Assembly (NCBI RefSeq): GCF_900177685.1
Contig: NZ_FXAY01000002.1
Span: 1-64,000, forward strand
Length of the DNA stretch: 64,000 nucleotides
Reading direction: 5' to 3'
Source: Agreia pratensis
Lineage (GTDB): Bacteria; Actinomycetota; Actinomycetes; Actinomycetales; Microbacteriaceae
Position 1 is the first letter of the stretch, and every line of letters starts with the position of its first letter. This document shows, one piece after another, positions 2,411 through 19,601 of the stretch. The notes beneath the pieces are model-generated. The model had not been told where the DNA came from, did no database searches, and saw only the letters and a list, made by a program, of their open reading frames with translations. The position numbers and the translations under genes are program-made.

Positions 2411-2458
2411 TGTGGATTTGATCGCTCGGTGGCGGTGTTCTGTGATCGCTTTGTGGCG
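2411..2458. repeat. Terminal repeat, element A left end
   Basis: The terminus reads TGTGGATTTGATCG and then the conserved core GGCGGTGTTCTGTGATCG. The unit GATCGCT-GTGGCG occurs twice, 24 bp apart, consistent with tandem transposase-binding sites. The ATPase stop codon lies immediately inside. Confidence 0.8.
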
Positions 2459-3268
2459 TTAGTTGCCGATGACGAGAATGCTGGCCGCGGCTTCGATGAC
2501 GTCGTCCGTGATGGTTTCGAGCTCGTTGATCTTGAGCACACGAGCGATCTGGGGGAAGAGTCGTTCGAGGAGGCGGAAGTTGCCGCGCGTGATGCGTTCG
2601 ATCGCGGCGATGGCCTGAGCATCGGTGAAGTCGTCGGGGTCGAGGGTTCGGCCGAGGCGTTTCCAGTGGCGGTCGAGCACAAAGAGGAGTTCGTCGCGGC
2701 CGAGGGTGCGATAGTGGTGGGAGAACCCGAGTCTGCTGTACAGCTGGGGGTAGTGCCGGAATCGTTGGTCGATGCCGGGCATGCCGATGAGGATCATCGA
2801 GAGGTGTTCGCGGTCGTGTCGGTCACGGAGCAGTTCAAGGGCCGTGGCGTTGAGTCTCTCTGCTTCATCGATGATGAGTAGTTCTACTAGACGGGTGACG
2901 GCGCCAGCTTTGGTGCGAGGCTCGGCCTCGAGTGTCCTGAGATGTTCGTCTGCGCAGAGACCGACCCTGATTATCCAATGGTCGATGTCGTGCATAAGTT
3001 CTTTGGGCCTGCTCAGCACTTCAGGTGTGTAGAAGACGGTGCGGGAACGATTAGCAAGAGCGTAGTGCTTGGCATCGTGATCGCCTCGAGGCCCCCATTC
3101 GTTGATGTATGGCTCGAGGCTGTCCCAGTTTGCGTAGCGGCGGGCGGAGTTGGTTTTGCCGACTCCGGCATCGCCGTGGCAGATGCCGATGGTTCGTTCC
3201 TTCCGGACGGCGTTGGCAAACTCGGTGAAGCGTCGGTGTTCTTTGGTCACGATGAATGTCTGGTTCAT
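2459..3268 (-). CDS. AAA ATPase of transposition (TniB/Tn552 p271-like), element A
   Basis: The 269-residue protein has a Walker A motif (GDAGVGKTNSAR, about residues 32-43), a Walker B (LLIIDEAERL) and a sensor region (LIGMPGIDQR). This matches the target-selection ATPases of Tn552, Tn5053 and Tn7-like systems (IstB/TniB/TnsC type). It would act with the DDE transposase to choose and hold target DNA. The ATG at 3266-3268 overlaps the transposase stop by one base (TGATG), so translation is coupled. A GTG lies one codon upstream. No TniQ-type targeting gene is present nearby. Confidence 0.85.
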   Translation of the reverse strand: MNQTFIVTKEHRRFTEFANAVRKERTIGICHGDAGVGKTNSARRYANWDSLEPYINEWGPRGDHDAKHYALANRSRTVFYTPEVLSRPKELMHDIDHWIIRVGLCADEHLRTLEAEPRTKAGAVTRLVELLIIDEAERLNATALELLRDRHDREHLSMILIGMPGIDQRFRHYPQLYSRLGFSHHYRTLGRDELLFVLDRHWKRLGRTLDPDDFTDAQAIAAIERITRGNFRLLERLFPQIARVLKINELETITDDVIEAAASILVIGN

Positions 3269-4653
3269 CACTCGTCCTCTTCATAGGTGCGGAGCCGGCG
3301 CCGGTGTGGAGTGGCCGCGGTGTCGCGCGGCTCGTCGCGAGTGACGGCTGTGGGGATGCGGTCGTTGATCGTGTGCCGGAGCTGTTTGCGGCGGGCCCGT
3401 CGGGCCGTTTCGATGTCGCGGAGGCTCATCCGGAGATTGGGGTGGGCTTCGTCGACGGCGACACACACGAAGGTGTTGCGGTCGTAGACGCGGATCTCGG
3501 AGATGTCGCGGGGGTCGTAGCGGATGGTAATGGTGTGCCCGACGAAGGGGGCCAGTGTCGGTGCGAGGTAGCGCTGGCCTTGGAAGTGGATGCCGTCTCG
3601 TTGCACGACGCGACTCTTGGGGACCGTGAGCAGGAGCCCGTCGAGTTCTTCGAGACTGTCGGGCATGCGCGGGAGCCAGCCTTCAGCGACCCAGGCATCC
3701 CGCGGCGAGAGGCCAAGTTCGCGGTGCGAGCGGGCGTTGTATGTCGAGATGAACGCGCCGATGGCCTGGTCGAGGGTGGCGAGATCGAGTACGGGCTGAG
3801 GTTTTCTGTCGCCGGGGCGGGTGTGTCCCGGGAGGGTGACGAGGAGTTCGGTGTTGATCGTTCGGAAGAAGCGCTCGATCTTGCCTCGGCCCTGGGGTCG
3901 CCCGACTGTGGAATGGATGATACGGATGCGCAGCTCGATGGCGGTGCGTTCGAGGTGGTGGCTGGTGAAGTCTGATCCATGGTCGACGTGGAGGATGTCG
4001 GGGATGCCGCACATCGCCCACGCCGGGTCGGTCTTTCGCCAGATCGCTTGGCGCAGAGCAAGGGCCGTGTTGAGCGCTGAGGGTGCGCCGGTGAAGACTG
4101 TGTATCCGCAAATTGCCCTTGAGCAGTCATCCATCACGATCGTCAGCCAGGGCCGGTCCGGCTTTCCGCCGACGCCGGTGATCAGGACGTCGAGTTCGGT
4201 ATGGTCCGCCTGCCAGATTTGATTCGGACGTTCAGCTCGGCGACGAAAGACGAGCTCATGCTTGTCGCGATATGAGGTCGGGCCTTCCAGCGCGAGGGTG
4301 ACGAGGGCCGGATCCAGTGCCTGGACGATTTGCCGGACGGTGGCATAGCTCGGCGCCGGTTTGCCGGCCCGTTCTGCTTCGTTGACGGAGAGGCGGTGCA
4401 GTGTCGCGAGGGCGGGGCGCGGCCTGGTCAGCGCGAGCCGTTCGATGAACTTCACTGTCTCGGGTGCAGTGCGGCGGGTGCCGGCGTCTGCTCGAGGGCG
4501 GGAATCGAAGGTGGCGCTGCCGCGGTCACGGTACAGCTGGTGCCAGCGCTGCAGCGTTCGAAGGGCGACTCCCGTATTTCGGGCGAGGACAGCGAGGGGT
4601 ATCTGGTCTTCGACGTGGAGCCGAAGAATCCGCCACCGCTCTTCGTCGTTCAT
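3268..4653 (-). CDS. DDE transposase with Mu-type C-terminal domain (TniA/Tn552 p480-like), element A
   Basis: The 461-residue protein has an N-terminal helix-turn-helix (TLQRWHQLYRDRG), then an rve/RNase-H-like catalytic core. The DDE residues are the Asp in WQADHTELD, the Asp in HVDHGSDF and, 35 residues later, the Glu in GRGKIERFF. A Mu-transposase-like C-terminal domain follows (GIHFQGQRYLAP). It is a divergent homologue of the 461-residue enzyme at 17356-18741, not an identical copy. ATG 4651-4653 is chosen because it aligns with the start of that homologue. The frame is open further upstream but antisense to the resolvase. Confidence 0.9.
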   Translation of the reverse strand: MNDEERWRILRLHVEDQIPLAVLARNTGVALRTLQRWHQLYRDRGSATFDSRPRADAGTRRTAPETVKFIERLALTRPRPALATLHRLSVNEAERAGKPAPSYATVRQIVQALDPALVTLALEGPTSYRDKHELVFRRRAERPNQIWQADHTELDVLITGVGGKPDRPWLTIVMDDCSRAICGYTVFTGAPSALNTALALRQAIWRKTDPAWAMCGIPDILHVDHGSDFTSHHLERTAIELRIRIIHSTVGRPQGRGKIERFFRTINTELLVTLPGHTRPGDRKPQPVLDLATLDQAIGAFISTYNARSHRELGLSPRDAWVAEGWLPRMPDSLEELDGLLLTVPKSRVVQRDGIHFQGQRYLAPTLAPFVGHTITIRYDPRDISEIRVYDRNTFVCVAVDEAHPNLRMSLRDIETARRARRKQLRHTINDRIPTAVTRDEPRDTAATPHRRRLRTYEEDE

Positions 4654-4660
4654 TTCATCT

Positions 4661-5257
4661 CTACACGACGGTGCTTTCGCGTCCGGCGACAACCTGCTGG
4701 TGGCGGTAGAGAGTTGCTCGACTCCAGCCGACAAGCCGGGCGGCGTCTTCGGCCGTGCGTCCTCTGGCTCGAGCGTCGGCTGCGATCGCGAGCTTGTCGG
4801 CGATGACGGCTGGGTCCGACAGAGGTCGGCCGAAGCGAGTCCCGTTCTGCCTGGCGGCAGCAATGCCGGCATTGACTCGTTCGACGATCAGTTCACGTTC
4901 GTACTCGGCGAGCGTGGCCAACATGTTGAGCATCAGCCGACCAGTCGATGTCGCGGGGTCGATGCCATCAGATATGGAGCGCACGTGGATACCGCGGTCT
5001 CGTAGCAAGTTCACTGTGTTTAGCACATCGATCAGGGAGCGACCGAGGCGATCGACCCGCCACACTACGACCGTGTCACCGGACTCTGCGTGCTCGAGGA
5101 GTTTCTTCATCCCGCGACGCTCGATCGCGGTCTTGCTCCCGGAGGTGACGTCGGCGAACACGTCTCGCTTCTGAACGCCAGCCTCGACGAGAGCATCGAG
5201 CTGCAGTTGCGCGTCCTGACTCGACGTACTCACCCGCGTGTACCCAAGAAGTCTCAT
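4661..5257 (-). CDS. Serine resolvase/invertase, element A
   Basis: This 198-residue small serine recombinase has the catalytic motif GYTRVSTSSQD near its N-terminus (nucleophile in RVS), the conserved VWRVDRLGRS segment, a LNMLATLAEYERELI E-helix and a C-terminal helix-turn-helix (RTAEDAARLVGWSRATLYRH). In Tn552/Tn5053 relatives it resolves the cointegrate made by replicative transposition. It is first in the three-gene module, 7 bp before the transposase. The start at 5257 aligns with the element B homologue; extra upstream codons are not conserved. Confidence 0.9.
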   Translation of the reverse strand: MRLLGYTRVSTSSQDAQLQLDALVEAGVQKRDVFADVTSGSKTAIERRGMKKLLEHAESGDTVVVWRVDRLGRSLIDVLNTVNLLRDRGIHVRSISDGIDPATSTGRLMLNMLATLAEYERELIVERVNAGIAAARQNGTRFGRPLSDPAVIADKLAIAADARARGRTAEDAARLVGWSRATLYRHQQVVAGRESTVV

Positions 5258-5299
5258 GCTTCCATTCTGACTCAAAAACCCCTGTCGGTCACTGCGCTG

Positions 5300-5320
5300 A
5301 GACACTGTGCGGCGAGACAT
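5300..5320 (-). promoter_or_regulatory. Putative res site motif upstream of resolvase A
   Basis: On the minus strand this reads ATGTCT, two variable bases, CCGCA, one variable base, AGTGTCT. The same arrangement occurs at 16689-16709, the same distance (about 42 bp) before the element B resolvase. The flanking DNA is otherwise diverged. TGTC half-sites are typical of res sites of small serine recombinases. It could also be a regulatory site. Confidence 0.5.
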
Positions 5321-5387: not shown

Positions 5388-5415
5388 GTCTCGAAAAGCT
5401 ATTGCTTTTCGAGAC
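5388..5415. repeat. Perfect 12-bp inverted repeat upstream of resolvase A
   Basis: gtctcgaaaagc at 5388-5399 and its complement at 5404-5415 flank the loop tatt, followed by gttttt on the plus strand. It may be a res accessory site or an intrinsic terminator. Position upstream of the resolvase favours the former; the T-run favours the latter. Confidence 0.55.
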
Positions 5416-5833: not shown

Positions 5834-5858
5834 GGGTGATCGTCGATGACCAATCGGC

Positions 5859-6168: not shown

Positions 6169-7131
6169 TTAGGGCCTGAGGATGTGAGTGTCAGTGCCGA
6201 ATTTTCGCGGTGAGGCTTCTGCGGCGGGGTCCGTGTCGCTTGTAGCCAGCGCGGGTTCAACTCGGAAGATGGACTTTTCGGTCTCGGGGTGGCGTCGGCC
6301 TTGGATGATGAAGATGATCGTGCCGACAGCGATGGCAGCGAAGGATGCCCAGATGTTTGCAGGGATCCCAAGGAACCCATCGCTGGTCGGGTCGATGCGA
6401 ATCGCTTCGAGCCAGCTGCGGCCGAGTCCATACCAGACGAGGTAAAGGCCGAGAGTGCGGCCCCAGCGGAGGGCAAGTCGGCGCTCAAGCAGGAGGAGGA
6501 CGGCGAATCCGGTCAGGTTCCAGATGATCTCGTAGAGGAACAGCGGGTGGAACAGGGTCCCGGCCGGCAGACCGTCCGGGAACATTGTGTCGGTCGGCAA
6601 GATTTCTAGCCCCCACGGCAGCGTGGTCGGGAGCCCGAACAATTCGTGGTTGAAGTAGTTTCCGATGCGTCCCAACGACTGGGCTACGAGCAAAGCCGGG
6701 GCGACGGCGTCGGCGAAAGACCAGAAGCGGATGTTGTGTCGCCGACACCCGATGTAGGCGCCGACTGCCCCGCCCAGCAGCGAACCGTAGAGGGCGTTGC
6801 CGCCGTCCCAGATGGCGAATACCAACCACAAGTTCGCGTCCGGGTAGAAGTAGTCGCCGAGGTGAGTGAACACATGGTAAAAACGTGCACCCACAATGCC
6901 GATCGGTACGGCCCACATGATGATGTCGAGCACGACCCCGTTCCCTGCACCTCGGGCAGAGAGCCGCCGCTGGGTAATAAATAGGGCAGCCACAATGCCG
7001 CTGAGAATGCACAGCGCGTACACGTGAACGGTCAACGGGCCCAAAGAGAACGAGGCCCATTCCGGCGGCGGGCTTGGAATCGACGCTGGGACCAGTCCCA
7101 GCACGTTGGTGGTCATCACGAGAGGCAGCAT
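6169..7131 (-). CDS. lgt: Prolipoprotein diacylglyceryl transferase (Lgt)
   Basis: The 320-residue membrane protein has about seven transmembrane segments. It carries the Lgt signature GRIGNYFNHELFG (near residue 155), the earlier IVGARFYHVF segment and a late YGLGRSWLEAIR motif. It transfers a diacylglyceryl group from phosphatidylglycerol to the lipobox cysteine of prelipoproteins at the cytoplasmic membrane. Accessory lgt copies are common on actinobacterial metal-resistance islands. Here a lipoprotein gene is present in element B (16067), but no dedicated substrate lies beside it. ATG 7131 has a GAGG leader. A chromosomal copy elsewhere is expected. Confidence 0.93.
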   Translation of the reverse strand: MLPLVMTTNVLGLVPASIPSPPPEWASFSLGPLTVHVYALCILSGIVAALFITQRRLSARGAGNGVVLDIIMWAVPIGIVGARFYHVFTHLGDYFYPDANLWLVFAIWDGGNALYGSLLGGAVGAYIGCRRHNIRFWSFADAVAPALLVAQSLGRIGNYFNHELFGLPTTLPWGLEILPTDTMFPDGLPAGTLFHPLFLYEIIWNLTGFAVLLLLERRLALRWGRTLGLYLVWYGLGRSWLEAIRIDPTSDGFLGIPANIWASFAAIAVGTIIFIIQGRRHPETEKSIFRVEPALATSDTDPAAEASPRKFGTDTHILRP

Positions 7132-7215: not shown

Positions 7216-7510
7216 TTACCTCGTGATCTCCACTGTCGTCGAGATGGTCAGATGATCCAGGTTCGGAAGGGTATGTGAGATCTCGTGCCTGATGTCGTGC
7301 ACGATCGTTTCGGCGGCTGAGATCGGCATGTCAGCGACAGCTATCGTGGCAGCGCCCTGGAGTCGGTGGCCGACCCATCGCAGCTGCAATGAAGGCACGG
7401 CAAGAAACCCCGGGGTGTGTTCGATCGTGTGCCGCGCTCGCTCGACGAGCTCGGGTTCGATGCCATCCATGAGGCGGCGCCCGATACTGCGAACGGTTCT
7501 CCGCTGATCT
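7216..7510 (-). pseudogene. C-terminal fragment of a CDF-family metal efflux transporter
   Basis: About 95 codons match the cytoplasmic dimerisation domain of cation diffusion facilitators: IGRRLMDGIEPELVERARHT, then a TPGF..LQLRWVGHRL strand, the I-VADMPI helix start and an HLTISTTVE end. The entire membrane domain is missing. The frame runs upstream into the repeat unit at 7526-7612, whose codons show no CDF similarity. This is a decayed Zn/Co/Cd exporter gene, probably truncated when neighbouring DNA was inserted. It stops 84 bp before lgt on the same strand. Confidence 0.75.
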
Positions 7511-7525
7511 GTGGTTGAGCCGGGA

Positions 7526-7612
7526 ACAAAAAAGGCCGGCTCGATGGCCGACCAAGGTTTTTCCGCGCAACAAAGGCGCAGGACCAGTATCCGGCTTCCT
7601 CTGGTCCTGCGC
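7526..7612 (-). repeat. Hairpin-plus-terminator repeat unit, copy 2
   Basis: On the minus strand a perfect 12-bp hairpin (GCGCAGGACCAG 7612-7601 with CTGGTCCTGCGC 7587-7576) is followed by a GGTCGGCC/GCCGGCC stem and T6. It begins 28 bp after the stop of the flavin reductase gene and ends against the truncated CDF gene. It closely resembles copy 1 at 5945-6029. It is at least a terminator; the paired copies and truncation junctions suggest more. Confidence 0.7.
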
Positions 7613-7639
7613 AATATCGGGGGTTTCTGACTGCCGCTG

Positions 7640-9034
7640 TTAGGTCCGGGCTAGGGTCGTGGCTCGGAGCTCTCGGGTCCATGCTTGGGTGGCGACCTGG
7701 ACGGCATCCCATGGTGAGCCGAGCGGGGGCGTGTAGGAGAGGTCGAGGTCGCTCATCGCGTCGACGGTCATGCTGTGGTGCAGGGCGGTGGCGTAGGTGT
7801 CGACGCGTTTGGCGATTTCGGCGCCGCGCGCTCCGACGAGTTGCGCCCCGAGCAGGAGCCCGGTGTCAGCGTCGCCGGTGATGCGGATGCTGAGCGGTTT
7901 CGATCCCGGGTAGTACGCCTTGTGGTCATCCGCGATTGCGGTGCCACTGAGAGGTGTGAAGCCGGCAGCGATGGCCTCATGGTCCCGGAGGCCGGTACGG
8001 GCGGCTACGAGGTCGAAGACTTTCACCACCTGAGTTCCGAGGCTGCCAGCAAAACGCGTGTTGCCGCCGATCGCGTTTTCTCCGGCGACGCGGCCCTGCT
8101 TGTGCGCGGTTGTGCCGAGCGGGAGGTAGGTGATACCGAGAAGACGGTGGTGGGTGACCACACCGTCACCTGCAGCAAACACGTGGGGCAGGCCGGTGCG
8201 CATCTGCTCGTCGACGACGACAGCGCCCCCGGGCCCGGTGGTAGCTCCGGCGCCGGTAAGCAGGCTGGTGTTCGGGCGGACGCCGACGACCAGGAGAACA
8301 ACGTCCGCGTTACGGGCGTAGCCCTGGCCGTTTTCGGAGCCGGTCACGGTGAGGCGGCCGTCCGTGCGGGTGATGGCTTCGACGCGGGCGTTGGTGACGA
8401 CGTCGACGCCGTGTCGGGCGAGTTCGTCGTGGACGAGGGAGCCGAGTTCGGGGTCGAGGGTGGAGAGCACTTCGGGGCCGCGCTGTAGCTGTGTCACGCG
8501 GAGGCCGCGGATGGTGAGGGCTTCGGCCATTTCGAGGCCGACGTAGCCGGCGCCGACGATGATCGCGGTTTCGGGCTGGTGCCCGTCGAGGTAGCGCTCG
8601 AGGGTGAAGGTGTCGCCCATTGAGTGCAGCACGTGCACACCGTCGTCTGGGCCGAGCCCGCCGGGGCCGACGCCGGCGATGCCCGCGGTCGACGGGGATG
8701 CTCCGGTGCCGACCATCAGCTCGTCGTACGCGATGGTCGATTCCTGCCCGTTCGCGTCCCGAACGGTGAGCTGTTGGCCGGCGACGTCGATGCCGGTGGC
8801 GAGGGTGTCGAGCCGGAGCTGCATACCGGTCGCTTCCAGGTCCGCGTGGGTGCGGTGTGCGAGGGACTGCCACGGGTTCACCTCGCGGGAGAAGTAGTAC
8901 GGAATCCCGCAGATGGAGAAGTTGGGGTAGGAGTCCGCGACGACGACGGTCACGTCAACGCTGGGGTCAAGTTCGCGGGCGCGGAGTGCGGTGGAGATTC
9001 CGGCGTCGCTTCCGCCGATTGCTACAAGATGCAT
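7640..9034 (-). CDS. FAD-dependent pyridine nucleotide-disulfide oxidoreductase (CoA-disulfide reductase/NADH oxidase type)
   Basis: The 464-residue protein has an N-terminal FAD-binding segment (AIGGSDAGISTALRA), the single-cysteine motif NFSICGIPYY (Cys about residue 42) typical of CoA-disulfide reductases, an NAD(P)-binding GAGYVGLEMAEAL, the FAD motif VFAAGD and a C-terminal dimerisation domain. It probably reduces a thiol disulfide or a metalloid-thiol adduct in the cytoplasm. It lies 15 bp downstream of the aquaporin gene and so is in an arsenic operon; related enzymes recur in actinobacterial ars clusters. The exact substrate cannot be inferred. Confidence 0.85.
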   Translation of the reverse strand: MHLVAIGGSDAGISTALRARELDPSVDVTVVVADSYPNFSICGIPYYFSREVNPWQSLAHRTHADLEATGMQLRLDTLATGIDVAGQQLTVRDANGQESTIAYDELMVGTGASPSTAGIAGVGPGGLGPDDGVHVLHSMGDTFTLERYLDGHQPETAIIVGAGYVGLEMAEALTIRGLRVTQLQRGPEVLSTLDPELGSLVHDELARHGVDVVTNARVEAITRTDGRLTVTGSENGQGYARNADVVLLVVGVRPNTSLLTGAGATTGPGGAVVVDEQMRTGLPHVFAAGDGVVTHHRLLGITYLPLGTTAHKQGRVAGENAIGGNTRFAGSLGTQVVKVFDLVAARTGLRDHEAIAAGFTPLSGTAIADDHKAYYPGSKPLSIRITGDADTGLLLGAQLVGARGAEIAKRVDTYATALHHSMTVDAMSDLDLSYTPPLGSPWDAVQVATQAWTRELRATTLART

Positions 9035-9049: not shown

Positions 9050-9805
9050 TCAGTGGGCTTTGACAGGATGAGTAACAACGACATCGCGAGCGGTGTGGGT
9101 GGCGGCCGGGTAGAACACAAACAGCAGACCGAGCCCCAGGGCTCCGCCGAGCAGCTGCGCCAGGATGAACGGGGCGACGGATGCCGGAGCGATGCCGGCA
9201 AAGGTGTCGGTGAACATGCGGGCGATCGTCACGGCGGGGTTCGCGAACGACGTCGAGCTGGTGAACCAGTACGCCGCCCCGATATACACACCGACCGCGG
9301 CCGCGGTGACGTGACCCTTACCGGTGTGGGCGAGAGCGAAGATCAGCAGCACCAAGCCCGCCGTGGCCACGACCTCGCCCACCAGGTGCCCGCCCGATGC
9401 CCGGACGGTGGTCGAGAAGGCGGGCGCGGTGTCGAACATGATGCCGGCCAAAAGTGTGCCCGTGATGCTTCCTCCGATCTGCGCCAACAGATACGGGGCA
9501 AGGTCTCTGGTCGGTAATCCGGTCTTCGTGCGGCGACCGATGAGCCAATCAACCAGCGAGACGACGGGGTTGAAGTGCGCACCCGACGCCGGGCCGAGCA
9601 TCAGGATCAATACGGCCAGGCCGAGGGCGGTCGCGATGCTGTTCTCGAGCAGCTGCAGGCCGACGTCGCGGGGCGAGAGTTGCTGCGCGGCGATCCCGGA
9701 TCCCACAACCACGGTCACCAGCAGCGCGGTGCCCACGAATTCGGCAGCGACCCGGCGCGCCAGATGCGGCCGAAAGTGCGGGGTGTGGGTCTGAGAGGTT
9801 TTCAT
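9050..9805 (-). CDS. MIP-family aquaporin, probable arsenite channel (AqpS-like)
   Basis: The 251-residue membrane protein has six predicted transmembrane segments and the two half-helix motifs of aquaporins: SGAHFNPVVS (NPV variant of NPA) and SFANPAVT. In Sinorhizobium meliloti an aquaglyceroporin, AqpS, replaces the ArsB pump and lets ArsC-generated arsenite leave down its gradient. The context here (divergent arsRC and arsC, no pump) fits that model. ATG 9805 is chosen because a GAGGT lies just upstream and the longer frame runs through the divergent promoter. It is the first gene of the operon with the flavin reductase. Confidence 0.88.
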   Translation of the reverse strand: MKTSQTHTPHFRPHLARRVAAEFVGTALLVTVVVGSGIAAQQLSPRDVGLQLLENSIATALGLAVLILMLGPASGAHFNPVVSLVDWLIGRRTKTGLPTRDLAPYLLAQIGGSITGTLLAGIMFDTAPAFSTTVRASGGHLVGEVVATAGLVLLIFALAHTGKGHVTAAAVGVYIGAAYWFTSSTSFANPAVTIARMFTDTFAGIAPASVAPFILAQLLGGALGLGLLFVFYPAATHTARDVVVTHPVKAH

Positions 9806-9814
9806 GTCGACCTC

Positions 9815-9847
9815 ATCTTGACTCGCGCAGGGTAGTTCAGTCAAGAT
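9815..9847. promoter_or_regulatory. ArsR-type operator and overlapping divergent promoters
   Basis: A perfect 9-bp inverted repeat (atcttgact 9815-9823, agtcaagat 9839-9847) is spaced by 15 bases between aqp and arsRC. Each arm contains TTGACT, a good -35, and a TCAAGA spaced 17 bases away that can serve as -10 for the opposite direction. The two promoters are thus superimposed face to face. One dimeric repressor could block both. The predicted arsRC start site falls next to its ATG, suggesting a leaderless mRNA. Confidence 0.65.
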
Positions 9848-9854
9848 TGAAACA

Positions 9855-10529
9855 ATGAATATTGAGCGAAATGACGAGTTGCAGTGGCGTGCTGCGAAGC
9901 ACGCCGCGCTCAGCGATCCTGCGCGCCTCCGCATCGTCGACCTGCTGACCGTCGGCGAGCTGGCCCCATCGGAAATCAGCGACTCGTTGACCATGCGCTC
10001 GAACCTCGTCACCCACCACCTGAACGTGCTCGAGTCGGTGGGTATGCTCACCCGGCACCGCTCCGAGGCGGACAAGCGGCGCTCCTATGTGCGGCTGACC
10101 GAGCACGCTCTGGAGGGGCTCGTGCCTGGTGCGGTGGGGTCAGCGCGGAGGGTGCTGTTCGTCTGCACCGCGAACTCGGCCCGCTCGCAACTCGCCGTTG
10201 CCCTGTGGAACAGGGTCAGCAGCATCCCCGCCGCATCGGCCGGCACTCACCCGGCCGAGCAGATCGCGTCGGGCGCGATCGCCACAGCCGCCCGCCACTC
10301 ATTGACCCTTCCCGGCGTACGTCCCCAAGCTTTGCCCGATGTGCTCGCTGCCGGCGACTTCGTGGTGACCGTGTGCGACAACGCGCACGAAGAATTGGGC
10401 CTGCGCGAGGGGGCGCATTGGTCGATCCCTGACCCTGTTCGGATCGGCACCGATGCCGCATTCGACGCCGTCCTCGATGACTTGCAGCACCGAATTGACG
10501 ACCTGGCGCCCCGCCTGGTCGCATCCTAA
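9855..10529 (+). CDS. ArsR regulator fused to a low-molecular-weight-phosphatase-type arsenate reductase
   Basis: Residues 1-90 form an ArsR-type winged helix (KHAALSDPARLRIVDLL, recognition helix SNLVTHHLNVLES). Residues 95-224 are an LMW-PTP/ArsC domain with the P-loop VCTANSARS (Cys-X5-Arg) and a late DP motif (SIPDPV). The fusion links arsenic sensing or promoter binding with arsenate reduction. ArsR-ArsC fusions are known from Microbacterium ars clusters. There is no obvious Shine-Dalgarno before ATG 9855, consistent with leaderless translation from the overlapping promoter. It is followed by a separate arsC 13 bp later. Confidence 0.9.
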   Translation: MNIERNDELQWRAAKHAALSDPARLRIVDLLTVGELAPSEISDSLTMRSNLVTHHLNVLESVGMLTRHRSEADKRRSYVRLTEHALEGLVPGAVGSARRVLFVCTANSARSQLAVALWNRVSSIPAASAGTHPAEQIASGAIATAARHSLTLPGVRPQALPDVLAAGDFVVTVCDNAHEELGLREGAHWSIPDPVRIGTDAAFDAVLDDLQHRIDDLAPRLVAS

Positions 10530-10542
10530 CCCGGAAGAAATC

Positions 10543-10938: not shown

Positions 10939-12263
10939 ACGGATGCCGGGGCGCGGCCGAGCTGGATCAATTGCTTCTCCGGCAGGGCGCAGCAGCTCCC
11001 GCCGATTCCGGTGCCGGCTGAGTCGAACAAGCCCGCCCCGCCACAGACCCCGGTATCCGGGAGCTGCAGCTCGACCCGGGCGGCCGCTTCATGGTCACCG
11101 GCCAGCGCGGCCACGACGGAGCGCACCTGCTCGTACCCGGTCATGGCCAAGAAGGTCGGGGCGCGCCCATAAGACTTTGCACCGACCAGGTAGAAGTCGG
11201 GTTCGGGCTGAGCGAGGTCACGGGCCCCGGTCGCTGCGACTGAACCGCACGAGTGAAGATTCGGGTCAATTTCTGCCGCGATCCGGATCGGTGCCTGCAG
11301 GGTCGCATCCAGCTCGAGGCGAAGTTCCGATAGGAACGAGAGGTCTGGGCGGAAACCGGTGAGCACGGCGACGTGATCGGCTGCGGCCAGGCTGCGGCCG
11401 TCCTCGCTGGTGAGTACCGCCTGGTCACCGTCACGGGCGATCTGTTCGACGCGGAAGCCGGTCACCATGTCGATCAGGCCGGCGTCGACGAACTCTTTCG
11501 CCGTGATGCCCAGCTGACCCCGGGCCGGCAGTTCGTCAGCCGCACCACCGCCGAAGGTGTTCCCGACCACCCCTCGGCGTAGAACCCACGTGACCTTCGT
11601 CGCCGGGTCGCGACGGGCGATCCGGCCGAGCGCGATTACCGAGGTGACTGCCGAGTGGCCAGATCCAACGACGACACTGTGTCGGCCCTCGTACTCCGTC
11701 CGCATTCGGTAGTCCGGGATGCGGTAGTCAAGCAGATCTGCGGCCGCTTTCTCTCCGAGCGCGGGCAATCCATCGGCCCCGGCGGGGTTCGGACTTGACC
11801 AGGTGCCGGATGCGTCGATCACCGCACGTGCATCCACCCGGTACTCGGTGCCATCGGCAGCTTCGATATGCACGGTGAAGGGCTGCTCTGCCCGGCCCGC
11901 GTCGACCAAACGGTCGCGGCCACGACGAGATACGCCAACCACGCGAGAGTCGTATCGGATGTGCTCGCCGAGGACCGCGGCAAGAGGGGCGAGGTACCCG
12001 CTGATCCACTGCGCACCCGTGGGATATCCCGCCGTCGGAGTCTGCCAGCCGGTGGGCCCGAGCAACCGTGCCGCTGCCGCGTCAACAAGCTCACCCCACT
12101 CCGAGAACAATCGCACGTGCCCCCACTCCGAAACCCCTGCAGCTGCGGTTTTGCCTGCTTCGAAGAGCAGCACGGCCTGGCCGCGATCGACCAGGTGCGC
12201 GGCGGCGGCGAGACCCTGGGGGCCTGCCCCGATGACGACGACGGGCAGCTCGTTCTTCTGCAT
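10935..12263 (-). CDS. NAD(P)/FAD-binding flavoprotein of arsenic clusters (ArsO-like)
   Basis: The 442-residue protein has an N-terminal FAD Rossmann motif (VVIGAGPQGLAAAAHL), a second nucleotide-binding motif (VVVGSGHSAVTSV) and an FMO/thioredoxin-reductase-like layout. Its C-terminus has an unusual glycine-rich stretch with a Cys pair (GIGGSCCALPEKQ) plus nearby cysteines, possibly for metalloid or thiol binding. It is transcribed divergently from arsR through a shared operator, which ties it to arsenic control. ArsO-type flavin monooxygenases are described in actinobacterial ars operons, but the reaction is not settled. ATG 12263 has the leader AGGAG; upstream extension runs into arsR. 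Confidence 0.75.
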   Translation of the reverse strand: MQKNELPVVVIGAGPQGLAAAAHLVDRGQAVLLFEAGKTAAAGVSEWGHVRLFSEWGELVDAAAARLLGPTGWQTPTAGYPTGAQWISGYLAPLAAVLGEHIRYDSRVVGVSRRGRDRLVDAGRAEQPFTVHIEAADGTEYRVDARAVIDASGTWSSPNPAGADGLPALGEKAAADLLDYRIPDYRMRTEYEGRHSVVVGSGHSAVTSVIALGRIARRDPATKVTWVLRRGVVGNTFGGGAADELPARGQLGITAKEFVDAGLIDMVTGFRVEQIARDGDQAVLTSEDGRSLAAADHVAVLTGFRPDLSFLSELRLELDATLQAPIRIAAEIDPNLHSCGSVAATGARDLAQPEPDFYLVGAKSYGRAPTFLAMTGYEQVRSVVAALAGDHEAAARVELQLPDTGVCGGAGLFDSAGTGIGGSCCALPEKQLIQLGRAPASV

Positions 12264-12273
12264 GACAACTCCT

Positions 12274-12317
12274 GATAGATCGACAATGTTCGATGCATCG
12301 AGACTGATCGATCTATC
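12274..12317. promoter_or_regulatory. ArsR operator between arsR and the flavoprotein gene
   Basis: A perfect 10-bp inverted repeat (gatagatcga 12274-12283, tcgatctatc 12308-12317) surrounds a second palindrome, cgatgcatcg at 12291-12300. The ATCGAT-rich pattern between two divergent ars genes suggests self-regulation by the adjacent ArsR. Confidence 0.65.
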
Positions 12318-12351
12318 GACAGATGTCAATACGACGTGAGAAGATCGGGTC

Positions 12352-12714
12352 ATGACGATCATTCTTCCCCTGCTGGCGACCGAGGCCGGCGCTGCGTGCT
12401 GCAGCCCGGTGACAGGCGGGGTGTTGAGTGCGGAAGAAGCTGAACAGCTCGCCCGCACATTTAAGGCCCTCGGTGACCCGACGCGCATCCGCCTGTTGTC
12501 CCTGATCGCTGCAAGCGAGGACGGGGAGGCCTGCATCTGCGATCTCACAGAACCGGTCGGACTGTCGCAGCCGACCGTCTCGCACCACATGAAGCAACTC
12601 GTCGACGCCGGCCTGGCCATGCGTGAGCAACGCGGTCGCTGGGCCTATTTCCGCGTCTTGGATGACGCTCTCGATCGAGCAGCACAAGCCCTACGTCCAG
12701 GACTCCCGGGATAG
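12352..12714 (+). CDS. arsR: ArsR/SmtB-family As(III) sensor repressor
   Basis: The 120-residue winged-helix repressor has a recognition helix around SQPTVSHHMKQL. An N-terminal adjacent Cys pair (residues 16-17, AACCSP) and cysteines at 61 and 63 (ACICDL) reproduce the Corynebacterium glutamicum ArsR1 layout, where C15, C16 and C55 of the dimer bind As(III). The E. coli-type CVCDL site in the recognition helix is only partly echoed. It is divergent from the flavoprotein gene with the palindromic operator between. It is the last gene of element A, followed by a terminator and the element end. Confidence 0.9.
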   Translation: MTIILPLLATEAGAACCSPVTGGVLSAEEAEQLARTFKALGDPTRIRLLSLIAASEDGEACICDLTEPVGLSQPTVSHHMKQLVDAGLAMREQRGRWAYFRVLDDALDRAAQALRPGLPG

Positions 12715-12806: not shown

Positions 12807-12978
12807 ATCCCGACAGTGGGACAGGAGTCTCACCGTATGTAAATAAATTGTCACGTTTGACACCTGACCGTCAAGTAGAAAATTGTTTTCCCACCAGGAC
12901 AGCTTCGCGTGGACGAAATGGCACGCGGGCAAGGCGACCACCCGTCACGAAGGACGACATGTAGTCACTGGCCCCACG

Positions 12979-13026
12979 CGCCAATTATCGATCACAGAAC
13001 ACCGCCACGTATCGATCAAATCCACA
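12979..13026. repeat. Terminal repeat, element A right end
   Basis: Read inward on the minus strand it starts TGTGGATTTGATCG and continues to the core GGCGGTGTTCTGTGATCG. It matches the A left end at all but a few of the first 40 positions. It is the inner border of element A. Confidence 0.8.
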
Positions 13027-13063
13027 GTCGCAGCGAGTTCGTGGAAACCGCTCCATCTAGCGG
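13027..13063. other. 37-bp spacer between the two transposon ends
   Basis: This short stretch separates the two inner TGTG termini. It ends in a small hairpin (ccgct/agcgg, 13048-13063) and encodes nothing visible. It matches neither copy of the 9-bp duplication and may be a scrap of an earlier host site. Confidence 0.6.
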
Positions 13064-13111
13064 TGTGGAGTTGATCGGTACAGGGCGGTGTTCTGTGGTC
13101 GCTCGGTGGCG
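13064..13111. repeat. Terminal repeat, element B left end
   Basis: It starts TGTGGAGTTGATCG and reaches the shared core GGCGGTGTTCTGTGGTCG at the same spacing as the other three ends. Two GTCGCT/GATCG-type half repeats are present. The following 150 bases to 13261 hold no recognisable gene. Confidence 0.8.
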
Positions 13112-13261
13112 GGGATCAGGAGTCGGGCTGTTTTGGATCGCATGCGTTTTGACACGCATTGGTTGAAGACATCTCGAGCGGGCGAGGGCGTCCGCGTTGG
13201 GTATCTCCGCGCGCCGCGCGACGACAGAAACCGAATCGTCAGCAGACCCGATGGCGTCGAC

Positions 13262-13876
13262 TCAGCGAAGTGATCGGCGCAGCGCGTTGACCGCGCGCAC
13301 GTGGTTCTCGGCCCGCCGGTGCCCGTTCGCGGGTGATGGGTGCGGCGCCGCCAACACGGGCACGATGACCGGTTGAGCATGCAGGGTGTAGTACCGCATG
13401 ATCCCGGTCAGCGCTGTCGCACCAAACGTCACGATCGAGGTCAGGCTCGGCATCAAAGCGATGATGGCAGCAAGAGCAGGTTGCGCGTCGTTGAGGTCGT
13501 CGGCGTTGGGTACGCGGCGCCCGCCGGCTGCGTCGAACAGTGGCCAAGGGACCACGTTCCACCGCACGTAGTCGCCACGCGACATTCCAGCCTCTAGACG
13601 CGCGGCTTTGAATGACCGCGACGTAGGGTTCACGTTGTCTTCTGAACTGAAAGCCGAAGAGTTGGCGCTCGCCGTCAGATTCGCCGGGCTCTCGAAGAGC
13701 ACCAGCACTCGTGCTTGCACTCCACCACTGTCGGGGTCGACCCATGGCACTACCCGGGCGCCGTGGTCGGCTGTGCGCAGCCGTCGAACGAGTGCGTTCA
13801 GGGCTGCCACATGCGGTTCTTCCAGGCGATCAAGCTTCGATGCTCTCCCCGCGACCCCTGTCGTTTCAGCGTGCAT
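13262..13876 (-). CDS. Uracil-DNA glycosylase family protein
   Basis: The 204-residue protein resembles actinobacterial UDG-superfamily proteins. It has an N-terminal strand-loop (VLVLFESPAN), the conserved SSEDNVNPTSRSF and RGDYVRWNVVPWPL segments and the late HPSPAN motif that contacts DNA in this superfamily. It may excise damaged bases, but the usual catalytic motif is altered, so activity is uncertain. Its start overlaps the LysR stop by 11 bp, suggesting coupled translation, an odd partner for a regulator. ATG 13876 was chosen for that overlap. Confidence 0.65.
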   Translation of the reverse strand: MHAETTGVAGRASKLDRLEEPHVAALNALVRRLRTADHGARVVPWVDPDSGGVQARVLVLFESPANLTASANSSAFSSEDNVNPTSRSFKAARLEAGMSRGDYVRWNVVPWPLFDAAGGRRVPNADDLNDAQPALAAIIALMPSLTSIVTFGATALTGIMRYYTLHAQPVIVPVLAAPHPSPANGHRRAENHVRAVNALRRSLR

Positions 13877-14786
13877 GCGTCCGGGCGATCAGAAGCAGTC
13901 GCTCGGCGTTCTCCGGCAGGCCGGTTGTGCTGCGCGCCCACACCGCCGTGAGCGGACGCTTCAGCGCCAGTCCCGCAATACGAACCCGAACGAGGCGACC
14001 GAGCGTCACGTCGTCGCGGATGGCGAGTGAGCTCAGCACCGCGGGCGCACTACCCGAGGCGGCGGTGGAACGGATCGCGGTCGTTGTTGGCAACACCAAA
14101 GCGGGAGCATCCGGAACCAGCGGTGACTCGAGCGCTCCGAGGGCGAGTTCGAGCGTGCGCCTCGTGCCGGAACCCTCTTCACGGACCACCAGGGCGGTCG
14201 AGGCGAGCTCTGCTGCGCTGACCGCGCGTCGACGCCGCGCCCATGGATGGTTCACCCCGACCACGACAACAAGCTCGTCGAACCCGATGACCCGCGATTC
14301 GAGGTCGGAAGGCACGTCGGGGGTCTCGATGAACCCGATGTCGCGGGCACCCGCGCGCACCTGCTCAACAACACTACGACTATTCGCCACGGCCAGATCG
14401 ACGGCAGCCGGATGCCCGCTCCCCGCCTGGAACGCAACCAACCACTCCGGCATGAGGTGCTCGGCGACCGTCAGACTCGCGCCGACCCGCAGCTGCAAAT
14501 GACGTGCGTCTCGGAGAGCTCTGACCGCCATCTCGAACCGGTCGGCAGCATCCAGCACATCCTGCGCCCAACCGGCCACCAGCATGCCCGCCTCGGTCAA
14601 CTGGGAACCACGGGCCGACCGGGTCACGAGCTCGGATCCGGTGCGGACTTCCAGGGCGCGGATGCGCGAGGAGACCGCCTGCTGGGTCACCCCGAGGTTC
14701 GTGCTAGCAGACGTGAGACTGCCGAACTCTGCCACGGCCGCGAGAGTCTGCAGACTTTTCAGATCAGGCAGTTCGAAGTCGCTCAC
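13866..14786 (-). CDS. LysR-family regulator of the adjacent TDT transporter
   Basis: The 306-residue protein has an N-terminal LysR winged helix (LQTLAAVAEFGSLTSASTNL, TQQAVSSRIRALE) and a periplasmic-binding-like effector domain. It starts with GTG at 14784-14786 and is divergent from the TDT transporter gene across an 86-bp region with LysR-type half-sites. LysR/TDT pairs are common in actinobacteria, where the transporter exports sulfite, a dicarboxylate or a tellurite-related anion. The inducer is unknown. Confidence 0.88.
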   Translation of the reverse strand: MSDFELPDLKSLQTLAAVAEFGSLTSASTNLGVTQQAVSSRIRALEVRTGSELVTRSARGSQLTEAGMLVAGWAQDVLDAADRFEMAVRALRDARHLQLRVGASLTVAEHLMPEWLVAFQAGSGHPAAVDLAVANSRSVVEQVRAGARDIGFIETPDVPSDLESRVIGFDELVVVVGVNHPWARRRRAVSAAELASTALVVREEGSGTRRTLELALGALESPLVPDAPALVLPTTTAIRSTAASGSAPAVLSSLAIRDDVTLGRLVRVRIAGLALKRPLTAVWARSTTGLPENAERLLLIARTHAR

Positions 14787-14872: not shown

Positions 14873-16021
14873 ATGTCAACCGCCCAGGCCGTCCGACCCG
14901 CCACCCCGTCACGGATGCTTATGCGCGAGCTCGAACACCCGATGCACATGTTCCGGAACATCACGCCGAACTGGTACGCGTCGGTCATGGGCACAGGAAT
15001 CGTAGCCAACGCCGCCGCCACCCTCCCCCTGCAGTTCGCCGGCCTTCGCGCTGCGGCGACAGTGGTGTGGGTCATCGCCAGCGTGCTGCTCGTCGCGCTC
15101 ACCGCCGCGACGGTCATGCACTGGGTCACGAACAGGGAGACGGCCCGCACCCACCACTTGAACCCCGTCATGGCCCACTTCTACGGGGCGCCCGCGATGG
15201 CCCTCCTCACCGTCGGGGCCGGAACCATCCTCCTCGGCCGGGACGTTCTCGGCGAACAGACCGCCGTCGCCATCGACGCCGTGCTCTGGGCCCTCGGCAC
15301 GATCATGGGCCTGGCAACCGCTGTCGCGGTGCCGTACCTGACCTTCACGAAGTTCACGGTCTCGGCCGACAGCGCGTTTGGCGGCTGGCTGATGCCCATC
15401 GTGCCGCCCATGGTCTCTGCGTCGACAGGCGCCCTGCTCATCCCGTACCTGCCCGAGGGCCAGGCCAGGCTCACCATGCTGCTGGCCTGCTACGGGATGT
15501 TCGGCCTCAGCCTCCTCGCTTCTCTCATCGTCATCACCCTCATCTGGTCGCGCCTCACCACGCACAAGATCGGTGCGGCCGCGATGGTTCCGACGCTCTG
15601 GATCGTGCTTGGCCCGCTCGGCCAATCCGTCACCGCCGTGAACCTGCTCGGCGGCAACGCCCACCTCGCTACCACCACATCCCTCGCCGACGCCCTTCAG
15701 GCCTTCGGCGTGATCTACGGGGTACCCGTACTCGGTTTCGCAGCCCTCTGGGCAGCACTCGCCCTAGCGATCACCGTGCGAACCGCACGCGAACACCTCC
15801 CGTTCTCGTTGACATGGTGGTCGTTCACCTTTCCCGTCGGTACCTGCGTCACCGGCCTCACCGGGGTAGCCCTGCACACCGGATCAGTCGCGTTCCAGGT
15901 CGCCGCCGTATTCGCCTTCGCCGCACTTCTCACCGCCTGGGCAGTCGTGGCCGTCCGCACATTCCACGGCAGCGCCCTCACCGGCGTTCTCTTCATGCCC
16001 CCTGCAGCGAAGACCGTCTGA
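14873..16021 (+). CDS. TDT family transporter (tellurite-resistance/dicarboxylate, TehA-like)
   Basis: The 382-residue membrane protein has about ten hydrophobic segments and the TDT-type start (MHMFRNITPNWYASVMGTGI). TehA-like channels of this superfamily move anions such as sulfite, C4-dicarboxylates or tellurite-related species; Ssu1-type members export sulfite. The divergent LysR probably controls it. ATG 14873 has a strong gaggaggg Shine-Dalgarno. The substrate is not decidable, but carriage on a transposon suggests a protective export role. Confidence 0.85.
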   Translation: MSTAQAVRPATPSRMLMRELEHPMHMFRNITPNWYASVMGTGIVANAAATLPLQFAGLRAAATVVWVIASVLLVALTAATVMHWVTNRETARTHHLNPVMAHFYGAPAMALLTVGAGTILLGRDVLGEQTAVAIDAVLWALGTIMGLATAVAVPYLTFTKFTVSADSAFGGWLMPIVPPMVSASTGALLIPYLPEGQARLTMLLACYGMFGLSLLASLIVITLIWSRLTTHKIGAAAMVPTLWIVLGPLGQSVTAVNLLGGNAHLATTTSLADALQAFGVIYGVPVLGFAALWAALALAITVRTAREHLPFSLTWWSFTFPVGTCVTGLTGVALHTGSVAFQVAAVFAFAALLTAWAVVAVRTFHGSALTGVLFMPPAAKTV

Positions 16022-16066: not shown

Positions 16067-16573
16067 ATGAAATCGAAGATTGCCCTCACCCTTGCGGCAG
16101 CCACATTCGCCACGCTTGCACTGGCAGGTTGCTCGGCCAGCAATACCTCCGCGGCCTCAGGCTCGGCACCATCGAGCATCCCCACTTCATCTGTGCCGAC
16201 AGTGGCGGAGTCGGACGCTGCAACCGCGACAAGCAGCCTCGGCACGATCATCGTCAACGGCGAAGGACTCACCGCCTACGCCTTCGACACCGATGTACCC
16301 AATTCCGGAACCAGCAGCTGCACCGACGTGTGCGCAACTACCTGGCCCGCCATCACCACCACCTCAGCTACCCCGACCGTCACCGGCATCACCGGCACCA
16401 TAAGCACGATCACCGGCGTGAACGGTGCCAAACAGATCACCGTCAATGGCATGCCGATCTACACCTTCTCTAAAGACGCCGCCCCCGGCGACGTCGAAGG
16501 ACAAGGTGTCAAAGGCACCTGGCACGCGCTCACACCCGCGGGCGAAAAGGTAATCACACCCGCTGCAGGCTGA
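16067..16573 (+). CDS. Secreted repeat-containing lipoprotein (COG4315-like)
   Basis: The 168-residue protein starts with a lipoprotein signal peptide and the lipobox LAGC (Cys 22), then a Ser/Thr/Ala-rich linker. Two copies of a repeat typical of COG4315 proteins follow: a LTAYAFDTD / CTDVCATTWPAI unit and a MPIYTFSKDAAPGDVEGQG / GTWHAL unit. It would be anchored to the outer face of the membrane. The function of the family is unknown; it is often near redox or sigma-factor genes. It is 45 bp after the TDT transporter and probably co-transcribed. Confidence 0.85.
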   Translation: MKSKIALTLAAATFATLALAGCSASNTSAASGSAPSSIPTSSVPTVAESDAATATSSLGTIIVNGEGLTAYAFDTDVPNSGTSSCTDVCATTWPAITTTSATPTVTGITGTISTITGVNGAKQITVNGMPIYTFSKDAAPGDVEGQGVKGTWHALTPAGEKVITPAAG

Positions 16574-16688
16574 TATTCAGGCTTTGGCTTTGTGCCTCAT
16601 CTAACTAAAGCTTTCCGAGGCACGCGAAACCTCTCCCGAGCCGCGGGAAGAAGTGGCGGAGTTCCGGGGCACCATCTGTCCCGGAAAC

Positions 16689-16751: not shown

Positions 16752-17348
16752 GTGAGACATCTCGGATACACACGGGTTAGCACCAAGAGCCAAGACGCGA
16801 AGCTGCAGGTCGACGCCCTCGTCAAATCCGGCGTGCAGGAGCGGGACATTTTCGCCGACGTCACCTCGGGCAGTCGGACCGCGATCTCGCGCCCCGGGAT
16901 GAAGAAGCTCCTGGAGTACGCCAAGCCAGGTGACACGGTCGTGGTGTGGCGGGTCGATCGTCTTGGACGATCCCTCATCGATGTTCTCAACACGGTGAAG
17001 TTGCTTCGAGAGCGGGACGTGCAGGTGAAGAGCATCTCGGATGGCATCGACCCGTCGACGACCTCGGGCCGGCTGATGTTGAACATGCTCGCCACATTGG
17101 CCGAGTACGAACGTGAGCTGATCACGGAACGCGTGAACGCCGGGATCACGGCTGCCCGGAAAGGCGGAACCAGGTTCGGGAGGCCGCTGTCGGACCCCGT
17201 CGTAGTTGCCGACAAGCTCAAGCTTGTTTCCGAAGCTCGAGCGAAGGGACGGACCGCTGAGGACGCGGCGAAACTCGTCGGGTGGAGCCGGGCCACTTTG
17301 TACCGCCACCAGCAGGCCTTCGCGGCTCGCGAGAGCGCGACCGTGTAG
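16752..17348 (+). CDS. Serine resolvase/invertase, element B
   Basis: The 198-residue protein is a close homologue of the element A resolvase (4661-5257) and of identical length. It has GYTRVSTKSQD with the catalytic serine, VVWRVDRLGRSLIDVLN, the E-helix LNMLATLAEYERELI and the C-terminal helix-turn-helix. It starts at GTG 16752. It resolves cointegrates at a res site that probably lies just upstream, and is followed 7 bp later by the transposase gene. Confidence 0.9.
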   Translation: MRHLGYTRVSTKSQDAKLQVDALVKSGVQERDIFADVTSGSRTAISRPGMKKLLEYAKPGDTVVVWRVDRLGRSLIDVLNTVKLLRERDVQVKSISDGIDPSTTSGRLMLNMLATLAEYERELITERVNAGITAARKGGTRFGRPLSDPVVVADKLKLVSEARAKGRTAEDAAKLVGWSRATLYRHQQAFAARESATV

Positions 17349-17355
17349 GTGACTC

Positions 17356-18741: not shown

Positions 18742-19553
18742 TGAATCAAGCATTCATCGTCACCAAGGAACACCGGCGCTTCACCGAATTCGCCAACGCT
18801 GTCCGGAAGGAGAAGACCATCGGGATCTGCCACGGGGCCGCCGGCGTCGGCAAAACCAACTCCGCCCGCCGCTACGCGAACTGGGACGCCCTCGAGGCCT
18901 ACATCAATGATTGGGGACCCCGCGGCGACCAAGACGCTCCGCACTACGCTCTGGCGAACCGATCCCGAACCGTCTTCTACACACCCGAAGTGCTCTGCAG
19001 TCCCAAATCGCTGATGAACGAGATCATGCACTGGCAGATCAAAGTCGGGATCTGCGCCGACGAGCACCTCCGATCCCTGACCCCAGGGGCCGCGGCCGCA
19101 AAGCAGAAAGACGTCACTCGTTTTGTGGAGCTGCTGATCATCGACGAAGCCGAACGGCTCACTCCCACCGCCCTGGAACTGCTCCGCGACAAACACGACC
19201 GCACCCACCTTGCGATGATCCTGATCGGCATGCCCGGCATCGACGAACGATTTCGCCACTACCCCCAGCTCTACAGCCGGCTCGGGTTCTCACACCATTA
19301 CCGCACCCTCGGACGCGACGAGCTCCTCTTCGTTCTCGACCGCCATTGGAAGCGACTGGGCAGGACTCTCGACCCTGACGACTTCACCGACTCGCAAGCA
19401 ATCGCCGCCATCGAACGCATCACCCGCGGCAACTTCCGCCTCCTCGAAAGACTCTTCCCCCAAATCAACCGGGTACTCAAGATCAACCAGCTCGACACCA
19501 TCACCGACGACGTCGTCGAAGCCGCAGCCAGCATCCTCGTCATCGGCAACTAG
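18741..19553 (+). CDS. AAA ATPase of transposition (TniB-like), element B
   Basis: The 270-residue protein has Walker A GAAGVGKTNSARR, Walker B LLIIDEAERL and sensor LIGMPGIDER. It differs from its element A homologue mainly in an alanine-rich linker (TPGAAAAKQK). The ATG at 18741 overlaps the transposase stop, with an alternative GTG one codon earlier. It ends 48 bp from the right end of the island. As in element A, no TniQ partner follows. Confidence 0.85.
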   Translation: MNQAFIVTKEHRRFTEFANAVRKEKTIGICHGAAGVGKTNSARRYANWDALEAYINDWGPRGDQDAPHYALANRSRTVFYTPEVLCSPKSLMNEIMHWQIKVGICADEHLRSLTPGAAAAKQKDVTRFVELLIIDEAERLTPTALELLRDKHDRTHLAMILIGMPGIDERFRHYPQLYSRLGFSHHYRTLGRDELLFVLDRHWKRLGRTLDPDDFTDSQAIAAIERITRGNFRLLERLFPQINRVLKINQLDTITDDVVEAAASILVIGN

Positions 19554-19601
19554 CGACACGAAGCGATCACAGAACACCGCCATGAAGCGCTAACAGTCAC
19601 A
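19554..19601. repeat. Terminal repeat, element B right end
   Basis: Read inward on the minus strand it starts TGTGACTGTTAGCGCT and then has the invariant core GGCGGTGTTCTGTGATCG. About 17 of its first 25 bases match the A left end. It forms the outer border of the island and directly abuts the 9-bp duplication. Confidence 0.8.

Follow-up and report, generated by a model that had tools for sequence, protein, structure and literature searches.

A composite island of two Tn552-type transposons in an Agreia pratensis esterase gene and the re-pairing of transposase modules with cargo at res site I

We analyzed a 64,000-nucleotide window (contig bases 1-64000 of the 3.58-Mb Agreia pratensis genome) in which an esterase gene of the Abhydrolase_3 family is interrupted by a 17,191-bp island, at positions 2411-19601, made of two Tn552-type transposons that we call units A and B. 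Our explanation, in which we place high confidence, is that the two units moved into the esterase as one composite and that their modules of resolvase, transposase and ATPase genes had been re-paired with cargo at site I of the res region. Both the composite nature of the island and its movement as a single unit appear well supported by the comparisons given below. The island runs from the left terminus TGTGGATTT... at 2411 to the right terminus ...TCACA at 19601, giving it TGTG...CACA termini, and it is flanked by a perfect 9-bp repeat, GCCGAAGGG; the flanks, joined with a single copy of this 9-mer, form an open Abhydrolase_3 frame. In all of this the original prediction, made from the letters of the window alone, proved correct. 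Unit A (2411-13026) carries its ATPase, transposase and resolvase genes on the minus strand, with its arsenic cargo next. Unit B (13064-19601) starts with its cargo, which includes a TDT-family transporter gene, and ends with the same three module genes on the plus strand (resolvase first, ATPase last), so that the modules point outward. As had been claimed, they are non-identical: the two transposases, both encoded by open frames, share 81% of their residues. Equally in line with the prediction, the duplication is confined to the outermost ends, since GCCGAAGGG is absent from both inner flanks and from the 37-bp spacer between the units. The claim of matching inner ends at 13026 and 13064 stands for unit A and less so for unit B, whose two ends are unlike each other across much of the first 18 bp.

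The relatives of A. pratensis provide both the empty target site and parts of the island at other loci. Seven congeners were searched, and six of them have an uninterrupted esterase with one such 9-mer: gccgaaggg itself occurs in G238, and one- or two-base variants occur elsewhere (gccgaacgg in G313 and G077, tccgaaggg in G140 and G278, tccgaacgg in G192). The seventh congener, G343, has a 36-bp match only at the esterase and is uninformative. G238 is Agreia sp. COWG (acid mine drainage), one plasmid stretch of which is letter-identical to pCOWG over 19,889 bases; matches on its chromosome and on pCOWG come from one strain and are not separate finds. On the COWG chromosome, window positions 5388-16614 recur as a colinear block of 11,228 bp with 98.8% identity (99.9-100%, except for 96.5% over window 9100-12720), and the A end, the spacer and the B end are identical over 141 bp. 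This core lies near 2.53 Mb and the empty esterase near 3.03 Mb. Because the esterase DNA adjoining the site is only 79% identical between the window and COWG (over 361 matching bp), the 98.8% block indicates recent transfer. A blastn search of plasmids with the spacer gave four records at chance level, the best at E 0.4. It is this A-B core at another locus, together with the single 9-bp duplication in the window and the intact esterase of the relatives, that argues for assembly elsewhere and movement as one, the first of two histories that the original prediction had offered. Parts of the composite are also found apart. Plasmid pP27867_1 of Cryobacterium arcticum (L159) carries a B-type unit, 96% identical over 4,624 bp, whose similarity starts no more than 3 bp from 13064; the 22.8 kb examined there contains no A. 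On pCOWG there is arsenic cargo of A type (92%) together with an end of the same type. The suggestion to look in related genomes for A alone, B alone and the composite was answered in part, by the A-B core, the B-type unit, and the A-type cargo with its end.

The movement of the composite can be understood from its ends. The two outermost, ATPase-side ends would have been paired by a DDE transposase and an ATPase supplied by one unit or by both, with the inner pair passed over and the entire island inserted into the esterase; such a pairing is plausible because all ends have the same architecture of two 24-bp repeats. In a set of 94 ends, from which duplicates were not removed, self-identity within the first 50 bp reaches 0.52 at a shift of 24 and averages 0.28 over shifts of 12-39. 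The far and ATPase-side ends share this architecture, with conservation dropping beyond ~50 bp, and no feature telling a left from a right end was seen in these 94. Tn552 is likewise described as having ends made of repeats, in arrays of transposase-binding sites. A position matrix scored the two inner ends of the window, both of which were among its training ends, at 61.9 and 59.9, compared with a background maximum of 2.3 and a range of 14.2-73.8 for true ends. The skipping of internal ends recurs: a scan of 22 elements flanked by duplications found them within five, and L066, added by hand after being noticed, has them too. The window, L051, L110 and L066 are clear cases; L109 scores weakly (21.4), and L130 adjoins an unresolved base. 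L066 itself (11771-16839) consists of two short units whose ends are 5 bp apart, within one 8-bp duplication, and forms a second, compact composite. A relic elsewhere in the A. pratensis genome (C10:218541-218768, or L046:1542-1769) joins one end and the tail of an ATPase gene to a resolvase fragment; no partner end above threshold occurs within ~39 kb around it.

Beyond anything in the original prediction are the res sites and the junctions found within them. Each unit can be described as a ~3-kb module joined to its cargo at the 28-bp site I, the module consisting of the three genes together with one half of that site and the adjacent end. Of 120 regions, 74 (62 of them distinct) have a recognizable site I, a near-palindrome that precedes the start of the resolvase by 143-145 bp. 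The presumed accessory sites II and III, which a three-site res of the Tn3/gamma-delta type would have upstream of the resolvase, were seen just as conserved blocks in the alignment of res regions. The core shared with COWG breaks off inside site I of A on the left and inside site I of B on the right. On the A side, the cargo-side half of A's site I is kept; on the B side, B's cargo-side half is followed by an A-like half and by another resolvase, which is 79% identical to the B protein and 84% identical to A in DNA. An initial breakpoint test placed 16 of 16 steps within site I or at its edge (-10 to +16) and was largely circular, its pairs having been preselected by windows around site I. 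The breakpoint sample reported here comprises the 62 units, filtered for a recognizable site I, with pairs not chosen by where their similarity ends. Twenty-eight of the 54 alignments that run through the resolvase gene at an identity of at least 88% start at -17..+3 of the site I center. Among pairs with 95-100% identity and no long shared cargo (n=9), eight start at -14..0, three of the eight being the pairs of one trio, and one starts at -188. Pairs that are 98.6-100% identical on the resolvase side drop to about 20-30% inside or at the 28-bp site. Near-identical modules are met with unrelated cargo, in Sediminivirga and Brevibacterium (99.2% over 2,988 bp), in Microbacterium and Corynebacterium (99.9% over 2,924 bp), and in a Rhodococcus metagenome-assembled genome and Kocuria (99.2% over 2,924 bp). 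Conversely, the same cargo is met with different modules in the window and COWG, the window and L159, L159 and COWG, L161 and L079 compared with L105, and L081 compared with L110 and L136. At the level of aligned sequence, these cases show that modules and cargoes have been re-paired at site I, and the resolvase is the likely agent.

In this exchange, the module would include half of site I together with the presumed sites II and III. If two units stood in direct order, the resolvase, acting on their two res sites, would reduce them to one hybrid unit, so that inverted pairs such as this one would be those that persist. Three loci carry two site I-type resolvases (the window, L051 and L122/L124), and all are inverted; it is from these three cases that we infer the removal of direct-order pairs by resolution. 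The direct-order neighbors that we saw, at L102 and L113, are of unlike type. At L122/L124 (~6170-12245), from two Corynebacterium genomes, two outward modules, 65 and 72% identical to B, stand head to head with no cargo between them and share one site I, centered at 9252 on both strands; no duplication was found there.

Other histories could be proposed for the island as a whole. A or B might have entered the esterase first and the other beside it, one duplication being lost later, which was the second history offered by the original prediction, and nested or adjacent elements of the Tn552 group do occur (L154 and L056). We give this sequence of events very little credence: the identical A-spacer-B junction stands at a different locus in COWG, where the esterase is empty, the 9-mer does not occur in the spacer, and its two outermost copies match perfectly. 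Alternatively, the inner ends may be dead relics, in which case the island would be a single larger transposon that works by its outer ends and carries a second module as a spare. This would agree with a copy that is bounded by its outer ends alone and with the fact that no duplication was seen at the inner ends. It is nonetheless unlikely, given that the inner ends score like working ends (with the training set as noted above) and that the similarity to C. arcticum begins so close to the inner end of B as to imply that this was once a transposon terminus.

A further doubt concerns the junctions at site I, which might have arisen by homologous recombination or by independent gain of cargo rather than through the resolvase. 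The res region is conserved, so selection alone would end some similarity nearby, and 17 of the 54 alignments start at +43..+78, all of them with identities of 94.4% or less, and one at -188. However, functional selection cannot yield a step from 98.6-100% to about 20-30% between sequences that are otherwise almost the same, and general recombination would have little homology to work with in a stretch of 28 bp. A serine resolvase is moreover expected to exchange strands at site I, as established for the gamma-delta and Tn3 resolvases, and we consider an origin without resolvase quite improbable. Still, several findings weigh against our preferred explanation, a composite that moved as one and whose modules were re-paired at site I. 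Besides the 17 alignments just mentioned, another 8 of the 54 extend far into shared cargo. The COWG core is without either transposase module, and that genome has no transposase match at E≤1e-80; the B-type unit of C. arcticum has a deletion within its transposase and no duplication; the A-type cargo of pCOWG is accompanied by neither B nor a transposase in the 19.9 kb examined; and no second copy of the entire composite, both modules included, was found. In addition, the duplication statistics given below come from a subset, set beside 25 pairs without a duplication and 39 entries without a pair.

It is tempting to generalize from this island, and we see about an even chance that actinobacterial Tn552-type transposons form a modular kit, in which the resolvase mainly shuffles ~3-kb modules onto unrelated cargo at site I and also makes joints of the wrong polarity (two modules in L122/L124, and in COWG apparently two cargoes over one site I). 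Symmetric ends would let arrays of several units jump by their outermost ends, and composites would be assembly intermediates of metal-resistance islands. What the data offer is a base-level, cross-genus view of how resistance transposons may be assembled from interchangeable parts, namely, modules re-paired with cargo at the resolvase crossover site and composites moving by their outermost like ends. Such re-pairing might account for the recurrence of related cargo, arsenic genes among it, beside different transposases, and it provides a testable system for resolvase-driven shuffling.

The shuffling of DNA by resolvases at res sites is reportedly an older idea, to judge by the title of Kholodii 2001 (Gene 269:121). 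Recombination of flanking DNA at res by the resolvase is common to that idea and to our explanation; here, the exchange is seen at the base level in Tn552-type elements, and the exchanged part is a 3-kb module. Kholodii 2001 is cited in PMC9501444. The composite has its own precedent in the Tn3 family, in TIME-COMP elements and in a composite made of two copies of the non-composite Tn3434, where, according to PMC4133298, two transposons or miniature derivatives move the intervening DNA by their outermost ends, as here; unlike the present case, these belong to the Tn3 family, with 5-bp duplications for TIME-COMP, whereas the island joins two different (81%) units of Tn552 type. In short, the composite is of a kind already known, to which its modularity adds a twist, and it is preceded by both the Tn3434 composite and the idea of resolvase shuffling. 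The literature matches listed included nothing on an Agreia composite or on the exchange of modules at site I in Tn552-type elements, which is weak evidence of absence, as the search mostly did not extend to subscription journals.

The protein sequences place both units in the Tn552 group. Compared with the Tn552-type element of Staphylococcus shinii p14AME19-3, the transposase is 41%, the ATPase 42% and the resolvase 39% identical, the gene order (resolvase-transposase-ATPase) is the same, and the ATPase has the same length of 271 aa. The modules, of three genes each up to the element end, have the traits of this group: a transposase with HTH, rve and Mu-type C-terminal domains by Pfam, a p271-type ATPase, and a serine resolvase. 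Residues D150, D224 and E260 of the transposase are invariant over seven aligned rows, and we take them, from established knowledge of the enzyme class, to be the DDE triad. The island differs from Tn552 in belonging to an actinobacterial clade, in having 9 bp as the commonest duplication, in carrying metal cargo instead of bla, and in being a composite of two units. TniQ was not among the Pfam matches of the module proteins or of the 10 cargo proteins scanned, the TniQ model having been applied to these proteins and not to the rest of the window. The original prediction had read this lack as a departure from relatives, a reading that cannot be kept, as the S. shinii element is also without an annotated TniQ; because the units belong to the Tn552 group, the lack is normal. 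The likeness that had been seen to Tn552 and Tn5053 holds for the former (39-42%) and fails for the latter. The Tn5053/Tn402 (Tn5090) family shares a DDE transposase, an ATPase and a serine resolvase with the island, but its one reference module contains tniQ, in the order tniA-B-Q-R; against this TniABQR module, the transposase is 26% identical to TniA, and the ATPase has no meaningful similarity to TniB. We have therefore rejected membership in that family, on the basis of these two values and the missing tniQ in a comparison with a single reference. The best solved-structure match of the transposase profile is TnsB of a Tn7-like, CRISPR-associated transposon (CAST) system (7svw, E 1.4e-49), from which the three-gene modules differ in lacking TnsA, TniQ/TnsD and Cas genes.

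A duplication of 9 bp is the mode of the island's branch of the Tn552 group and no anomaly. The original prediction had considered it longer than the range of relatives, which does not hold, given the published values and the insertions surveyed here: PMC3276174 gives 6 bp for Tn552 and 10 bp in pIB485- and pMW2-like plasmids, and PMC12486829 mentions a 7-bp target site. In our survey, ends were located as inverted-repeat pairs (at least 27/50) and duplications were read afterwards; where several pairs qualified, the one with the longest duplication was kept, a choice that favors duplications. After rows with repeated flanks were dropped, 103 entries remained, without de-duplication of the pairless ones. 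A target duplication was read in 39 of them; another 25 have a pair and no duplication, and in 39 there is no pair in the DNA examined. The 39 distinct insertions have duplications of 9 bp (18 cases), 6 bp (9), 8 bp (6), 7 bp (5) and 10 bp (1), and an insertion in a Citricoccus plasmid, also of 9 bp, brings the count to 19 of 40. The measured range for this one branch is therefore 6-10 bp, with 9 bp the commonest, and among transposases at least 70% identical to that of B, 14 of 22 have 9 bp. In a control with mispaired flanks, at least five matching bases occurred in 1 of 5388 pairs and at least six in none. An element of ~5,760 bp in Kocuria, Enemella and Demequina has duplications of 9, 9, 9 and 8 bp, and none in L155. 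As a separate observation, a 10,050-bp Curtobacterium-type element at eight Microbacteriaceae sites (L058, L059, L060, L145-L148 and L150) has 6 or 7 bp at seven of them and none at L150.

Table 1. Features of the island and of the interrupted esterase, in window coordinates.
Feature	Position	Strand	Basis
Esterase 3' part (Abhydrolase_3), up to and including the left duplication	1859..2410	-	Pfam PF07859; joined frame
Left 9-bp target duplication GCCGAAGGG	2402..2410	.	Abuts island start
Unit A outer (ATPase-side) end, two 24-bp repeats	2411..2460	+	End alignment
Unit A ATPase (AAA_22, p271/TniB-like)	2459..3271	-	Pfam
Unit A DDE transposase, 461 aa (HTH, rve, Mu-transpos_C); longer in-frame start at 4872	3268..4653	-	Pfam, alignment
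Unit A serine resolvase; start may be 5257	4661..5320	-	ORF, Pfam
Unit A res site I, 28 bp; center 144 bp upstream of the 5257 start	5388..5415	-	Alignment
Cargo A Lgt (prolipoprotein diacylglyceryl transferase)	6169..7131	-	Family match
Cargo A cation-efflux protein, C-terminal remnant (ZT_dimer)	7216..7614	-	Family match
Cargo A pyridine nucleotide-disulphide oxidoreductase	7640..9034	-	Family match
Cargo A aquaporin (MIP); true start probably within frame	9050..10075	-	Family match
Cargo A ArsR repressor fused to low-molecular-weight phosphatase domain	9855..10529	+	Family match
Cargo A arsenate reductase-like protein of the low-molecular-weight phosphatase family; true start probably later	10453..10938	+	Family match
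Cargo A ArsO-like flavin monooxygenase; true start probably within frame	10935..12620	-	Far below NCBIfam cut-off
Cargo A ArsR-family repressor	12352..12714	+	Family match
Unit A inner end	12977..13026	-	End alignment, position matrix
Spacer between units, 37 bp, identical in Agreia sp. COWG	13027..13063	.	Alignment
Unit B inner end	13064..13113	+	End alignment
Cargo B uracil-DNA glycosylase superfamily protein	13262..13876	-	Family match
Cargo B LysR-family regulator	13866..14786	-	Family match
Cargo B TDT (tellurite-resistance/dicarboxylate) family transporter	14873..16021	+	Below NCBIfam cut-off; L159 annotation TDT family
Cargo B secreted lipoprotein-like protein	16067..16573	+	Below cut-off
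Unit B res site I, 28 bp	16594..16621	+	Alignment
Unit B serine resolvase	16752..17348	+	Pfam
Unit B DDE transposase, 461 aa	17356..18741	+	Pfam, alignment
Unit B ATPase, 271 aa	18738..19553	+	Pfam, alignment
Unit B outer (ATPase-side) end	19552..19601	-	End alignment
Right 9-bp target duplication GCCGAAGGG	19602..19610	.	Abuts island end
Esterase 5' part, open frame; true start probably inside	19602..20258	-	ORF, Pfam, joined frame

The functions given for the cargo of both units are predicted from family matches, several of them under the curated cut-off. The pCOWG relative of the arsenate reductase-like phosphatase of unit A is annotated as a low molecular weight phosphatase. The cation-efflux remnant has an inverted 322-bp match of 87% identity (window 7183-7502) just beyond the shared core in COWG, where the matching frame is longer, at 346 aa. 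The COWG chromosome also contains a 2.4-kb unit (25929-28376 of a reverse-complemented stretch, L202) with ends of the Tn552 group, no transposase and no duplication, whose genes, by reading of their translations, would encode a different serine recombinase and ArsR-like, CadD-like and LspA-like proteins. Genes for lipoprotein processing, lgt in the window and the putative LspA-like gene of this small unit, thus travel with metal genes as cargo.

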